Origin: Gemmatimonadota bacterium
GTDB taxonomy: Bacteria; Gemmatimonadota; Gemmatimonadetes; Gemmatimonadales; Gemmatimonadaceae
Reading direction: 5' to 3'
NCBI GenBank assembly: GCA_016874035.1
Contig: VGVM01000023.1
Coordinates: 1-38,297 of the forward strand
DNA: 38,297 nucleotides
Part shown: positions 3,472 to 37,238 of the stretch, one piece after another
Layout: each line of letters opens with the position of its first letter
How positions within the stretch are numbered: the stretch's first letter is position 1
Notes under the pieces: generated by a model
Databases searched by the model: none
What the model was told of the DNA's origin: nothing
Seen by the model: only the letters and a program-made list of their open reading frames with translations
Program-made: the position numbers and the translations under genes

Positions 3472-3480
3472 GAGTCTAGA

Positions 3481-3522
3481 TAGTAGGTATTAGATAGTAG
3501 GTAGTAGGTAGTAGGTAGTAGG
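3481..3522. repeat. Heptamer tandem repeat TAGTAGG in the proline dehydrogenase leader
   Basis: Four perfect consecutive TAGTAGG units occupy 3495-3522, preceded by another unit at 3481-3487 and a degenerate spacer. The array begins 10 nt upstream of the proline dehydrogenase start codon. The same heptamer recurs at 37211-37238, so it is a repeat family, not a one-off. Confidence 0.85.
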
Positions 3523-3576
3523 TAGACAGGGCGCGGACGTAAGAGTGCTGAACTCGCCTCGCTGGACCCCTACGAT

Positions 3577-3622: not shown

Positions 3623-4855
3623 CTACCCCTTCCACGTCCCCTTGGCGACAGCCGGGACGAACTTGTCGAGTTTGGGCGGCGGGAACGGCAGCGACTTCCG
3701 CTGCTCGGCGCTCATGTAGGCCGTCATGAGCATCCGCACCACATCCACACCGTCGTCCCAGGTGAGTAGCGGCTTTTCCTTGCCGAGGAACACCCGCACG
3801 AAGTGGCGATCCTCGTTGGTGTAGCCGTAGGCGCCGTACTCTTCCGGGATCACCGGCATCACGCCCTGCTCGGCGTTCTGCTTCTCGACGAGATCCTCGC
3901 CCGCCTTACCCTTCACTTCGCGGCTGAAGAACAACTGCAGGCCGGAGTCGAGCGAGTTCCACTTCATCGAATACTCGGGCCCCAGCAGCTCGGCGGAGAG
4001 CCGAAGCCCCGCCCCGACGTAACTCCAGCTCGTCGTGGCCTCGCCGATCGCGAGTTCGCCCGTCGGCGTCTCGAACTCGATCATGACGCTGGCAAAATCT
4101 TCAGCGGGTGCCTTCGAGTAGTCCACCTCTGAGCCCATCGCGGCCTTGAGCTTCTTCGCGTACGCGGGGCGCGACCACTTGAGCGACGCGATGTGACCGG
4201 TGACTCGCTTCGGCTTCACGGTCGAGAGCGGCTGGCCGGGTTCGGTGAGCAAGTAGCGAACGACGAGGGCGGAGTGGCACATCATGTCGTTGAGCACGCC
4301 GCCGCCCTGCTGCCTGCCCTGCCAGAACCACGGCGCGTGTGGGCCGCTGTGTTCTTCCGCGGCGCGCGCGAGGTAGGGCCGGCCCGTGGTGGCGGCGCCT
4401 CGCGCCCAGAGGAGCTTCTTGCCCGCCTCGACGTGCGGCGCGAACAGCTGGTTCTCGAGGTACCCCGTCTTCAGGCCGACCTTCTTGACCATGTCGCGGA
4501 TCTTGATCGCCTCGGCGACGTTCCGCGCGAGCGGCTTCTCGCAAGCGATGCCCTTGAGTGTGCCGCGCCCCTTCGCGATGGTGTGGACGATCTCCTCGAC
4601 GTTCTCGACGCGCGTGTGGTTCGGACCGCAGAGCCAGATCGCGTCCACTTCGGGGTCGGCGACCATTTCGCCGATGCTGCGGAACGTCTTCGCGAACCCG
4701 ACATCCATCTGCTTCGCGAGCGTGGCGGCCTCGGCGGCGCGCACGTGGTTGGGGCTCCACACGCCGGTGACGGCGCTCTCGCGCACGCCGCGCCAGCCCT
4801 GGATGTGGAAGCGGGTGTTGAAGCCGGAGCCGATGAAGCCGACGCGGAGTGCCAT
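3623..4855 (-). CDS. Gfo/Idh/MocA family NAD(P)-dependent oxidoreductase
   Basis: A 410-residue protein. An N-terminal Rossmann fold has the dinucleotide motif GFIGSGFNTRFH (6-17); the family's CEKPLARN signature follows (105-112), then GGGVLNDMMCHS (184-195), the usual 'GGGxLxDxxxH' of the substrate domain. The family oxidises or epimerises sugars, inositols and related polyols; the substrate cannot be read. No signal peptide is seen, so it is cytoplasmic. It is last in a minus-strand set after an amidohydrolase and a TPR protein. The start is remarkable: the first 12 nt of the gene (coding MALR) are repeated four more times upstream in a 14-bp tandem array, each copy forming a tiny ORF ending in TAATG. 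The plausible ribosome site (AGGT at 4923-4920) lies before the outermost copy. Confidence 0.92.
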   Translation of the reverse strand: MALRVGFIGSGFNTRFHIQGWRGVRESAVTGVWSPNHVRAAEAATLAKQMDVGFAKTFRSIGEMVADPEVDAIWLCGPNHTRVENVEEIVHTIAKGRGTLKGIACEKPLARNVAEAIKIRDMVKKVGLKTGYLENQLFAPHVEAGKKLLWARGAATTGRPYLARAAEEHSGPHAPWFWQGRQQGGGVLNDMMCHSALVVRYLLTEPGQPLSTVKPKRVTGHIASLKWSRPAYAKKLKAAMGSEVDYSKAPAEDFASVMIEFETPTGELAIGEATTSWSYVGAGLRLSAELLGPEYSMKWNSLDSGLQLFFSREVKGKAGEDLVEKQNAEQGVMPVIPEEYGAYGYTNEDRHFVRVFLGKEKPLLTWDDGVDVVRMLMTAYMSAEQRKSLPFPPPKLDKFVPAVAKGTWKG

Positions 4856-4911
4856 TAGCGGAGTGCCATTAGCGGAGTGTCATTAGCGGAGTGCCATTAG
4901 CGGAGTGCCAT
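4844..4911 (-). repeat. 14-bp tandem repeat making a ladder of four start-stop mini-ORFs
   Basis: On the minus strand the unit is TAATGGCACTCCGC. Five tandem copies (plus-strand boundaries 4844, 4858, 4872, 4886, 4900) include the real start of the oxidoreductase gene. Each of the four upstream copies reads ATG-GCA-CTC-CGC-TAA, with the last A of TAA being the A of the next ATG; the third copy from the gene has one change (ACA for GCA, Ala to Thr). A possible ribosome site AGGT (4923-4920) lies 8 nt before the outermost ATG (4911) and 64 nt before the true ATG (4855). Translation would then have to terminate and restart along the ladder, or start independently at the real ATG. Changes in copy number would leave the protein unchanged. 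Confidence 0.9.
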
Positions 4912-4946
4912 GTGAAGGTACCTGACGCCGGGCTGCAACATGACCC

Positions 4947-6518
4947 TCACCGGGCCCCTTTCGATTCGACGATGGCGCGCATTTCCGCGGCCTCCGGGAG
5001 TCCCGCGTCCGCCTTGTGCCAGTTGGCTTGCACTCGCTGCGCGGCAGTCAACGCGGATTGCGCGTCGCCAGCGGCGCGCGCGGCCCGGGCGAGGCCGATG
5101 AGTGCGCGCGTCCGGCCAGGTGTTCGGGCAAGCGCTCTCGTGAACGCCGCCTGCGCCTCGGCGGCGCGACCCGCCGCCAGCAGGATCTCGCCGTGCAGCT
5201 CCTCCGGCGGCTTCACGAACTGCGGTGGCCCAAACTCGAATGGCATACCGGCCTCGACGAGCGCGGCATCGCGGGCGCGCGACGCCGCGACGGCCCAGTC
5301 CTTGTCGACCGCGGCAGTGGCGGCCCTCAGCGTGAGCGACACCACGTTCAGTGCGTCCTTGGTCGTCCCGGAGGCCCGCATATGCGCCGTCGCGACCGCG
5401 AGATCCGCCTTCTCCAACGCCGCCTTGTCGCCGCGCTTCAGCGCGACCATTCCGGCAACGAACGCATCGGTTGCCAGCGGAACCTGCTGGCCCAACGGAA
5501 TATTGAGCTGCCACGACGCGACGGGGTCCGTCCACCGCTCGCCGTCAATCACGTAACTCGCGCGCATGTTCACGATGTACCCCGGCTCCCCGCCCCGCTG
5601 CTGCTTGCCGAAGTTGGCGCGTACGGTGTCGAGCAGCGCGCGCGATTCCGCGTACCGCCCGGCTTGGGTGTACCCGTAGCCGAGCCACGACGAGTAGTGA
5701 CCGGCCTGGATGATGTGCGACTGGTTGTGCGCTGCCGTCGTGTTCCGCGCGATGACATCGTCCCACATGCCGAGCGCGACGAAGATGTGCGACGTCATGT
5801 GGAGCGCGTGCGGCGAGCCGGGTGCGATGCGCGAATACGCACGCGCGGCCCAGAGCCCGAGCGGCGCGTGCACAGGGTCGTCGAAGGCGTGGATGACGAA
5901 ATGCGCTGCCGCCGGGTGGTCAGGATTCTCCCGCAGGACTTCCTCGGCCAGCGCGCCCGCCTGCATATAGGATGTGAACTCACGCACGCTCTGGTTGAGC
6001 CCGAGCAAGCCGAGCGCGTGCCACATCTTCGCTTCATGGTCCTTGGGGTGCGCGAGTGACGCCCGTTCGGCCGCGAGCGTGAAGAGCGTGTCGCGCCTCG
6101 GCTTCGAACCTTCGCCGTAGAGGGCCTCGACGGCGTCGAGGTACATCTGCTCGCGAGGCGTCCGCGCCTTGGCGCGCCGTTCCGCCGCTGTCGGCGCCAG
6201 CCGGGCGAGCGCGCCGCGCGCGGTCGCCAGGTTCTGCTGGTTCCACACCTGATGCGTGTACGTCAGCGCCTCACCCGCGTAGGCGAGTGCGAACAACGGG
6301 TCCGCCTTCTGCGCCTCCTGGAACGCCGTCGCGGCAGGCTCGTACTCGAAGCTGTAATACAGCAGCATGCCGCGGATGAATGGCGCCTGCGCGGCGGCGT
6401 TGCCGGAGTTCGGGAAGGAAATCGTGCCGAGCGGCTGCTGATGCGGCGCGGCACCCTGCGCGGCGAGATCGGTGGCCACGAAGGCCAGTGCGGTGCATGC
6501 GACAAGTCGTTGGATCAT
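4947..6518 (-). CDS. Secreted TPR-repeat protein
   Basis: A 523-residue protein with a Sec signal peptide (1-21, ending TDLAAQ) and TPR-like helical pairs, for example around 43-105 and in the C-terminal part (LLAAGRAAEAQAAFTRALAR). The central segment is highly distinctive: HFVIHAFDDPVHAPLG (206-221) and PHALHMTSHIFVALGMWDD (236-254). These His-rich motifs recur in a known but functionally uncharacterised TPR family in soil bacteria. The many conserved His residues suggest metal or ligand binding, which is inference. Its ATG overlaps the stop of the amidohydrolase gene (ATGA, 6518-6515), so the two are translationally coupled. The oxidoreductase ladder begins 35 nt after its stop. Confidence 0.85.
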   Translation of the reverse strand: MIQRLVACTALAFVATDLAAQGAAPHQQPLGTISFPNSGNAAAQAPFIRGMLLYYSFEYEPAATAFQEAQKADPLFALAYAGEALTYTHQVWNQQNLATARGALARLAPTAAERRAKARTPREQMYLDAVEALYGEGSKPRRDTLFTLAAERASLAHPKDHEAKMWHALGLLGLNQSVREFTSYMQAGALAEEVLRENPDHPAAAHFVIHAFDDPVHAPLGLWAARAYSRIAPGSPHALHMTSHIFVALGMWDDVIARNTTAAHNQSHIIQAGHYSSWLGYGYTQAGRYAESRALLDTVRANFGKQQRGGEPGYIVNMRASYVIDGERWTDPVASWQLNIPLGQQVPLATDAFVAGMVALKRGDKAALEKADLAVATAHMRASGTTKDALNVVSLTLRAATAAVDKDWAVAASRARDAALVEAGMPFEFGPPQFVKPPEELHGEILLAAGRAAEAQAAFTRALARTPGRTRALIGLARAARAAGDAQSALTAAQRVQANWHKADAGLPEAAEMRAIVESKGAR

Positions 6519-26350: not shown

Positions 26351-26986
26351 TTATCGGCGCCGCCGGTAATCCTTGAGCCAGATCACGAACAATCCGCAGT
26401 TCGCATCGCCCTGCAGCGTGCCGCCGAGTTCGAGCGGGATGCTCGACGGGCCGTTGTAGAACTCGACCGCCGCGATGTCCTCCTGCCGGATCGCGCGGAG
26501 GTCGTACATCGGAGGCATAGCGACGTCGTTGATCGCCACCCGGATGATGCAGAGCTGGTTCGGCGTCGAACCGACCATGCTCATCCGCGTGCCGCGGTTG
26601 CCGACGATCGCCGTGTTGCCGCTGCCGATATCACGGATGTCGCCGCCGCTGACGCGCGCGAGCAACATCGGCGTGTGCGGCGCGTTCAGCGCCATGATTT
26701 CCTTATTGGTCAGGAACTTGCCCGTTCCCTTGATACGCGCGCGCCGCTGGTACGCCATCGGCAGCTCGACAAAGTCTTCCTTGATCGTCGTTTGCGGCAA
26801 CTGCTGGGCCCCGCTGCGCTTCGCCGAGTCGGCTCGCGCCTGCGAGTCGGCGCGCTGCGCAGAATCAGACCGTGGCGGGCGGGCCTGCCCGGCGCCCTGC
26901 GCCGACGCGCGCGTCGCAACCGCGCCTGTCGCCGCCGTCGCGAAAGCCGCCATCGTCACAACGTTCAGAATCCTCAGTCGCCCCAT
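26351..26986 (-). CDS. Standalone TonB-receptor plug-like secreted protein
   Basis: A 211-residue protein with a signal peptide (ending TRASAQ) followed by a charged low-complexity stretch with DSAQRADSQARADSAKR repeats (about 40-56). The remaining part, from about 70, looks like a TonB-dependent receptor plug without a barrel: IMALNAPHTPMLLARVSGGD, CIIRVAINDVAMPPMYDLRA, then the ending IAAVEFYNGPSSIPLELGG and CGLFVIWLK. This plug-like ending is familiar from proteins of Gemmatimonadota-type bacteria, usually fused to a CarboxypepD_reg domain, which is absent here. Its ATG shares a base with the stop of the M20 hydrolase gene (TAATG, 26988-26984), so the two are coupled. Confidence 0.8.
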   Translation of the reverse strand: MGRLRILNVVTMAAFATAATGAVATRASAQGAGQARPPRSDSAQRADSQARADSAKRSGAQQLPQTTIKEDFVELPMAYQRRARIKGTGKFLTNKEIMALNAPHTPMLLARVSGGDIRDIGSGNTAIVGNRGTRMSMVGSTPNQLCIIRVAINDVAMPPMYDLRAIRQEDIAAVEFYNGPSSIPLELGGTLQGDANCGLFVIWLKDYRRRR

Positions 26987-28338
26987 TACGCCCCCGCGTC
27001 CGCGGCCAGCACGGCGTGCATCAACACGTTCACGCCGTTCTCGATATCCCCTGGAGTGGAATACTCCTTAGGCGAGTGACTGATCCCTCCGATGCTCGGG
27101 ATGAAGATCATCCCCATCGGGCAGATCAGCGCCAGGTTCTGCGCATCGTGCCCCGCCCCACTTGGCAGCAGCTTGGTCGCCAGCCCCAGCTGCCTTGCCG
27201 CCGCCGAAATGTAGCCCCGCATCGCCGGGTCGCTGAGCGCCGGCGCGTGAGGCGTGGAACTCGTCCGGAAGCTGAAGGTGGTGCCGCTGCGTTCGCCGAT
27301 CTTCTTCGCCTCATCCTGGATCATCTGCCCGACGCGCTGGATCACGTCGGAACTCAGATCGCGCACCTCGACCGTCATTTCGACCCGCCCAGGGATCACG
27401 TTCGTTGCGCCGGGGAACGCCTGAATCTTCCCTACCGTTGCTACCTGCCTGCCGGGCATGGACGTCACGATCCGGTTTACTGCCTCGACCAGTCTCGACG
27501 CCGACAGCAGCGCATCGCGGCGACCGGTCATCGCCGTCGTGCCGGCGTGATTGGCGAATCCCTCGACGGTCACGTCCCATCGCGCGATGGACACGATGCC
27601 CTCGACGATGCCGATGGGAATCTTCTCGAGGTCCAACGTTCCGCCCTGCTCGATATGCAGCTCGAAGTAGCATGCCGCGTCGCCCTTGGCGCGGCGCGAC
27701 GATTCGAGTCGGGTCGGATCGCCGCCGAGGAACGTGATGCCTTCGCGAATCGTCTTGCCGCTGACGGAGCGCGCGGCGAGTTCTTGCGCGGTCATCACGC
27801 CGGTCGCGGCGTGGCTGCCGTAGAGGCCGCCTTCTTCGTTCTGCCAGACGACCACTTCGAGCGGGTGTCGCGTGGTCACACCCTGTTCGGCGAAGGTCTG
27901 GACGACTTCGATCGCGCCAAGCGAGCCGACATCGCCATCGTAGTTCCCGCCTTCGGGCACGGAATCAATGTGTGAGCCGAAGATGATCGGTTTCAGGCCT
28001 GGTACACTGCCCGAGCGTCGGCCCCAGATGTTGCCGGCCGTGTCCATTGATACGTCGAGCTTCGCAGACCGCATGAGTTGCATCACGTACGCGCGTCCAT
28101 CGCGATCGGCGTCGGAGTACGCCACGCGAGAGACTCCGCCCTGCGGGTTCGCGCCGAACTTCGCGAGCTCGGTGAGGTGCCCATTGATGCGCGCGGCGTT
28201 GATGCGGAGCGCGCCGCGGCCCTGTACGCTTGCGCCGGGCATGGGGTCGGCGGCGTCAGCGCGTGCGATCAGTCCGCCCGCCCCGGTCGCGGCCGTCAAC
28301 GCTCCGGCGGTGCCCGCCACGAAGGTGCGTCGTTTCAT
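26986..28338 (-). CDS. Exported M20-family hydrolase (allantoate amidohydrolase / N-carbamoyl-L-amino-acid hydrolase type)
   Basis: The frame opens at 28374, but the ATG at 28338 gives a textbook Tat signal (MKRRTFVAGTAGALTAATGA) and is preferred: 450 residues. The M20 metal ligands are in place: H123 in GSHIDSVPEGG, D134 in NYDGDVG, the Glu pair in QNEEGG (168-169), the bridging-domain His in LHIEQGGTLD, and a final His in SGAGHDAQNLA. This arrangement is that of the hydantoinase/carbamoylase branch, which hydrolyses ureido groups (N-carbamoyl amino acids, allantoate, ureidoglycolate), releasing ammonia. It heads the long minus-strand run, and its TAA stop overlaps the plug-protein ATG. Confidence 0.92.
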   Translation of the reverse strand: MKRRTFVAGTAGALTAATGAGGLIARADAADPMPGASVQGRGALRINAARINGHLTELAKFGANPQGGVSRVAYSDADRDGRAYVMQLMRSAKLDVSMDTAGNIWGRRSGSVPGLKPIIFGSHIDSVPEGGNYDGDVGSLGAIEVVQTFAEQGVTTRHPLEVVVWQNEEGGLYGSHAATGVMTAQELAARSVSGKTIREGITFLGGDPTRLESSRRAKGDAACYFELHIEQGGTLDLEKIPIGIVEGIVSIARWDVTVEGFANHAGTTAMTGRRDALLSASRLVEAVNRIVTSMPGRQVATVGKIQAFPGATNVIPGRVEMTVEVRDLSSDVIQRVGQMIQDEAKKIGERSGTTFSFRTSSTPHAPALSDPAMRGYISAAARQLGLATKLLPSGAGHDAQNLALICPMGMIFIPSIGGISHSPKEYSTPGDIENGVNVLMHAVLAADAGA

Positions 28339-37202: not shown

Positions 37203-37210
37203 ACAACAGA

Positions 37211-37238
37211 TAGTAGATAGTAGGTAGTAGATAGTAGG
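37211..37238. repeat. Second heptamer tandem repeat TAGTAG(A/G)
   Basis: Four consecutive 7-bp units (TAGTAGA, TAGTAGG, TAGTAGA, TAGTAGG) lie between the BNR gene stop (37202) and the terminator hairpin (37241). It is the same family as the array at 3481-3522, where the units are TAGTAGG. Confidence 0.85.

Follow-up and report, generated by a model that had tools for sequence, protein, structure and literature searches.

How does a gene come to begin in the last copy of a tandem repeat built from stop and start codons, and do ribosomes make use of the copies that lie in front of it? This question is raised by a locus in a Gemmatimonadaceae metagenome-assembled genome (MAG) from an uncultured bacterium, which is 99.5% complete. 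Throughout this text, the window denotes the whole stretch of DNA that was analysed, 38,297 nucleotides of contig VGVM01000023.1. The explanation that we favour, on balance and by a modest degree of confidence, combines an array derived from a junction between two genes with a relay of termination and reinitiation events along it. The anatomy of the array, the ancestral junction, the gene loss and the recurrence of similar ladders at other gene starts form the part established here, and the use of the rungs by ribosomes is put forward more tentatively below.

Anatomy of the array

The array lies on the minus strand at positions 4844–4911 (68 nt), where a 14-nt unit is repeated in tandem to give five copies that differ by a single substitution. 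The unit reads TAATGGCACTCCGC or, in the phase chosen by the first-pass annotation of this DNA, ATGGCACTCCGCTA. TRF describes it as 4.9 copies of period 14 with 96% match and a score of 129. In 200 Markov-1 shuffles of the window, the maximum scores had a median of 52 and never exceeded 78; the array is beyond chance expectation. The first bases of its five ATGs are found at 4911, 4897, 4883, 4869, and 4855. The last of them opens the gene of a Gfo/Idh/MocA oxidoreductase (3623–4855, minus strand; 410 aa; PF01408 and PF22725), which begins at copy 5 of the array and for whose product no equivalog-level name was found.

Copies 1–4 each form a closed mini-ORF, ATG NNN CTC CGC TAA, and the final A of each TAA is also the A of the next ATG, generating a TAATG joint. 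Rung 1 (4897–4911, minus strand; ATG GCA CTC CGC TAA) and rung 2 (4883–4897, minus strand) encode MALR-stop, followed by rung 3 (4869–4883, minus strand), which encodes MTLR-stop owing to a G to A change that turns the beginning of copy 3 (4883–4870) into ATGACA, and by rung 4 (4855–4869, minus strand), again MALR-stop, whose TAA overlaps the real ATG (TAATG, 4857–4853). All four rung joints are 1-nt stop/start overlaps on the same strand, as in coupled junctions. The first-pass annotation had described the five copies, the rungs with their one ACA codon and the innermost copy as the Gfo start, all of which are borne out by the sequence, and had rightly pointed out that the TAATG geometry is of the kind known to allow termination–reinitiation. 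It also stands that a change in unit number is frame-neutral: each unit supplies an in-frame TAA, gaining or losing units leaves the real ORF as it is, and the frame switching of simple sequence repeat (SSR) contingency loci does not apply.

The 14-nt unit occurs at no second locus when the whole 3.08-Mb genome is searched with up to one mismatch. Genome-wide gene and array statistics rest on a 438-kb sample of this genome, where all other arrays scoring at least 90, one 47-nt unit excepted, have a period divisible by three. The window also contains intergenic 7-nt arrays at 3477–3525 and 37208–37237 (TAGGTAG and AGATAGT). The TAGGTAG pattern is present at about 20 genomic places on both strands, and other Gemmatimonadota often contain related TGATGNN arrays of 7 nt.

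Leader and Shine–Dalgarno sites

Upstream of the array lies a gene for a TPR-repeat protein (4947–6518, minus strand; 523 aa), a candidate feeder of ribosomes into the ladder. Its stop codon (4949–4947) is separated from rung 1 by a spacer of 35 nt (4912–4946, minus strand), which is the site occupied by acetamidase and amidohydrolase genes of about 2.5 kb in a relative. An ATG at 4941, located 5 nt past the TPR stop and overlooked by the first-pass annotation, opens a short ORF of 14 codons, MLQPGVRYLHMALR-stop (4897–4941, minus strand), that is in frame with rung 1 and closes on its TAA; in geometry only, it constitutes an upstream ORF near the first start. The TPR gene, the 14-codon ORF, rungs 2–4, and the Gfo gene thereby form a continuous chain in which each stop is followed by a start.

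Shine–Dalgarno (SD)-like sequences are restricted to the outer end of this chain. GAGG (4948–4945) lies upstream of the ATG at 4941 with a duplex ΔG of −5.9, and AGGT (4923–4920) is found 8 nt before the outermost array ATG (4911) with a duplex ΔG of −4.1, making rung 1 the only rung with such a site. No SD-like match precedes the remaining four ATGs, including the true start (ΔG of −1.5, −1.5, +0.7, and −1.5). These duplex energies agree with the earlier statement that AGGT is suitably spaced for the outermost ATG alone within the array. Owing to the array, the real ATG is 56 nt farther from the nearest SD.

Stop/start overlaps as such are not unusual in this organism. According to automatic gene calls in the 438-kb sample, TRATG or 4-nt overlaps join about 58 of 185 pairs of adjacent genes on the same strand; thus, the coupling geometry is ordinary for the genome. 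Among the neighbouring genes of the window, the analysis detected two TRATG junctions, and the TAATG at 26984–26988, which the first-pass annotation had placed between two real genes, is indeed an ordinary overlap of that type.

The ancestral junction and the lost gene pair

The origin of the array becomes apparent by comparison with a relative of the same genus (G004), whose Gfo protein is 86% identical to that of the window. The operon in this relative is ordered amidohydrolase–TPR–acetamidase–amidohydrolase2–Gfo–ProDH, the gene names being the analyst's reading. The window keeps this order minus acetamidase and amidohydrolase2 (2.5 kb), with the gap exactly at the array. An orthologue of amidohydrolase2 immediately precedes Gfo in 8 of the 17 other members of the genus, and none is found in the 99.5%-complete genome studied here, where the best match reaches 33% identity. 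In G004, the amidohydrolase gene ends ...TTCTAATGGCACTCCGCGTC on the Gfo start, and the boundary reads GGGATCTTCTAATGGCACTCCGCGTCGGC, a 1-nt stop/start overlap of the form TTC TAATG. A single slipped copy of CTAATGGCACTCCG yields exactly the rung joint CTCCGCTAATGG, and slippage by one such unit turns a G004-type junction into ...CTCCGCTAATGGCACTCCGCGTC, the joint seen in the window.

Since the G004 amidohydrolase ends on the Gfo start and the gene pair is missing here, the array very probably arose by tandem amplification of an ancestral stop/start junction. The TA of the unit would then be the stop codon of the lost upstream amidohydrolase, retained as a relic in each mini-ORF. This modifies the earlier description of the unit as the gene's own start: copy 5 is the real start, but the TA appears, from the G004 comparison, to derive from the stop codon of the lost neighbour. 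A related junction, TTCTAAAGTGGCACTCCGC, is found in another genome (G002) at the end of an intact amidohydrolase gene, ahead of a Gfo pseudogene. This pseudogene (L035 2753–2905, G002:C1) has a large internal deletion that joins residues 2–20 to about 95–128.

The most economical history would place amplification at the coupled junction first and loss of the upstream genes second. We infer this order only, because the TA is missing from rung 1, in front of which CAC stands in place of the ancestral CTA. The 35-nt spacer is similar to the stretch that encodes VFKQGVGY close to the C-terminus of the amidohydrolase (in the frame ATG TTG CAG CCC GGC GTC AGG TAC), with a score that is reached by 13 of 1000 shuffles but by 162 of 2000 (8%) random 35-mers of the window. 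The 14-codon ORF may, on this weak evidence, be a degraded remnant of the C-terminal coding region of the amidohydrolase. The locus illustrates that a coupled junction can persist after the gene that contributed the stop codon has gone.

The array is absent before every other Gfo orthologue examined, where a MALR-stop ORF is likewise lacking as a conserved leader peptide, and the relatives offer no series of copy numbers. The single-base variant had been taken as a sign of long persistence, a view that does not hold: with one mismatch in five copies and a Gfo gene that is about 20% nucleotide-diverged from its array-less relatives, the evidence points to an array that is young or has been homogenised.

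Similar ladders elsewhere in Gemmatimonadota

Three TRATG motifs at 14-nt spacing were searched in 298 Gemmatimonadota genomes, a search that recovered the array of the window. The protein names given for other ladders are the analyst's reading of the sequences, not database calls. Ladders precede a BatB-like VWA gene (G203; mini-ORFs MGEH-stop and MGQH-stop) and miaA (G100; MRFA-stop and MWCA-stop), and in both cases the upstream gene ends on rung 1, as does a PIN-domain-like gene before a BatA-like gene (G090), where the units have diverged and one measures 15 nt. A further ladder, of six copies, precedes ispG (G034). Two ladders of period 11 were also found. One belongs to a membrane-protein gene that follows a DUF4159-like gene (G322), with the GTG start of the next gene on the last rung; the other belongs to a gene in another family (G311), whose upstream neighbour terminates on rung 2. 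The loci concerned (L147, L148, L149, L230, L171, and L342) encode BatB-like, MiaA, BatA-like, and IspG proteins, a membrane protein, and a large membrane-anchored protein. Further candidates (L161, L225, L231, L235, and L220) were dropped, as the downstream ORF was not a recognisable protein.

A rough chance expectation, based on the junction and TRATG frequencies of the window genome, is about 0.03 ladders at gene starts per period in 298 genomes. Within their genus, which is not that of the window, the MiaA and BatB ladders each occur in a single species (28 miaA and 27 BatB loci, a few of them partial or paralogous), and the Gfo array likewise in one; therefore, stop/start ladders appear, at present sampling, to form repeatedly and not to last. 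Many of the other TRATG arrays among the matches listed are 7-nt intergenic ones or begin on the stop codon of a gene and lead into no start; slippage close to stop codons is thus common in Gemmatimonadota.

Several other arrays deserve mention. At L161, L225, L333, L334, L153, L158, L228, and L351, arrays with periods from 8 to 16 open, with their first copy, precisely at the stop codon that ends a long upstream gene; such stop-codon arrays reach no gene start and are the 3'-end counterpart of the ladders. A 16-nt array of at least eight copies in G336 forms the ends of two contigs (L228 and L229; C347 and C512), which are probably one locus split by the repeat in the assembly. Diverged TRATG motifs at 11-bp spacing were observed in several genomes (L321, L331, L332, L337, L338, and L340), and their helical spacing suggests direct repeats of operators, not mini-ORFs.

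Three-rung TRATG patterns are found with period 11 in 29 of the 298 genomes versus 6 of 298 with period 13, and a reversed-pattern control gives about 7 matches for each of these periods. Selection on the reading frame was considered as the reason for this excess and rejected, since most period-11 matches lie away from gene starts; it is further weakened by the fact that 11 bp is about one helical turn, with operator repeats as the alternative. Of the ladders placed at recognisable gene starts, seven show period 11 or 14 as opposed to none with period 13, a bias that is only suggestive (p of about 0.06, calculated by hand for two periods versus one, from samples that differ).

A proposed termination–reinitiation relay and its alternatives

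The proposed history starts with slippage-type amplification of the 1-nt overlap (TTC TAATG GCACTCCGC) between the amidohydrolase and Gfo/Idh/MocA genes. A stop/start unit would here be copied into a stop/start unit, and such duplications would be tolerable because the added copies change neither protein. Deletion of the amidohydrolase gene and the preceding acetamidase gene, at a later point or together with the amplification, would have left the rungs behind. Ribosomes would then enter at the SD-bearing ATGs at 4941 or 4911, or arrive from the TPR gene, translate a short ORF, terminate on a rung and restart at the overlapping ATG, repeating this step down to the real ATG. If each step passed a fixed fraction of ribosomes, output would fall geometrically with the number of rungs; moreover, very short ORFs may lose ribosomes by peptidyl-tRNA drop-off, as discussed in PMC8708949, in which case the ladder would serve as an attenuator.

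Reinitiation at overlapping stop and start codons is established experimentally in bacteria and archaea, being most efficient at spacings of −4 to +3 nt (PMC6728339, PMC12548453). In four of five tested E. coli gene pairs, removal of the SD reduced reinitiation by 60–90% or abolished it (PMC6728339), and the SD-less rungs may pass few ribosomes for this reason. The ladder is also restricted to one species and shows no conservation, which counts against the relay, since neutral mutation suffices to explain such an array. That the relay operates is a conjecture we rate at just under an even chance.

The alternative that survives best, possible but on the whole doubtful, is that the array is a neutral scar of slippage, a passing duplication irrelevant to expression, with the gene being translated by ribosomes that initiate directly at the real ATG or reach it otherwise and with the copies being lost later. 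Its restriction to one species among the Gfo orthologues examined, repeated in the MiaA and BatB ladders, fits this well, as do the intergenic tandem repeats common in the phylum, some of which start on a stop codon and never reach a start. However, a real ATG that lies 56 nt from the nearest SD, with four closed mini-ORFs in the way, makes some effect on initiation likely. In the first-pass annotation, the array had instead been proposed to tune expression by copy number as a form of phase variation, the number of units varying within populations and scaling translation. Frame-neutral, near-identical units in a leader would suit this role, and such ladders do form recurrently, but the array-less Gfo orthologues, the two analogous ladders of one species each, the missing copy-number series among relatives and a gene with no link to any switchable trait leave the proposal unsupported and quite unlikely. 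A broader idea, which we regard as speculative and unlikely, is that the stop/start ladders of Gemmatimonadota are a recurrent, frame-neutral and evolvable element, where self-closing units with a period of 2 modulo 3 multiply and each rung scales translation by a fixed factor, providing a graded and reversible dial.

An error of copy number in the metagenome assembly is very improbable: the genome is a MAG and an unrelated 16-nt array does sit at contig ends in G336, but the array of 68 nt is shorter than the usual read length and bears a private variant in its middle copy. Direct repeats are typical of operator iterons, but the reading of the units as DNA elements or as a structured leader instead of mini-ORFs can be set aside as scarcely credible, since a spacing of 14 bp does not correspond to complete helical turns, the unit consists of ancestral coding and stop sequence and occurs at no other genomic place, and the leader RNA shows no more structure than shuffled sequences do (z = +1.0).

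Comparison with known systems

No described case of tandem start-codon repeats or mini-ORF arrays in bacteria was found in the openly accessible literature, apart from a remark on mycobacterial interspersed repetitive units (MIRUs) in a review (PMC12548453). If ribosomes do hop along the rungs, natural ladders with differing numbers of rungs would allow a single SD-less stop–restart event to be measured, and they would offer a simple genetic route to graded expression with unchanged proteins. Even a neutral array would illustrate clearly why tandem duplication is tolerated at stop/start overlaps.

Among known systems, SSR contingency loci are like the array in that tandemly repeated units, which slippage could change, occupy the 5' end of a gene, but they usually switch by reading frame or promoter spacing; since the array is frame-neutral and its variation unobserved, it is not a standard contingency locus. 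Minigenes and short upstream ORFs, such as the two-codon mg2 before txe (PMC8708949), resemble the rungs in that an ORF of a few codons just upstream affects the translation of the next gene in cis. However, mg2 is a single mini-ORF, unlike the array of near-identical four-codon ORFs described here. MIRUs sit at start codons and contain an internal ORF coupled to the gene, and their insertion barely disturbs expression; they are apparently mobile, occur at many places and have a spacing of −4 nt (PMC12548453). In contrast, the unit of the present array measures 14 nt and derives from a local junction with a 1-nt overlap. Since it is confined to one genomic locus and not dispersed, the array is not a MIRU, though akin to one in tolerating insertion at a start. 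Termination–reinitiation coupling at TGATG, TAATG, or ATGA junctions offers the likeness of a 1-nt TAATG overlap at each rung on one transcript strand, exactly as in the ancestral G004 junction, with the difference that the junction is tandemly repeated here, that several very short ORFs precede the gene and that the coupling is putative. By analogy, the array would thus work like translational coupling, a mechanism of a known kind, with MIRUs as its closest analogue.
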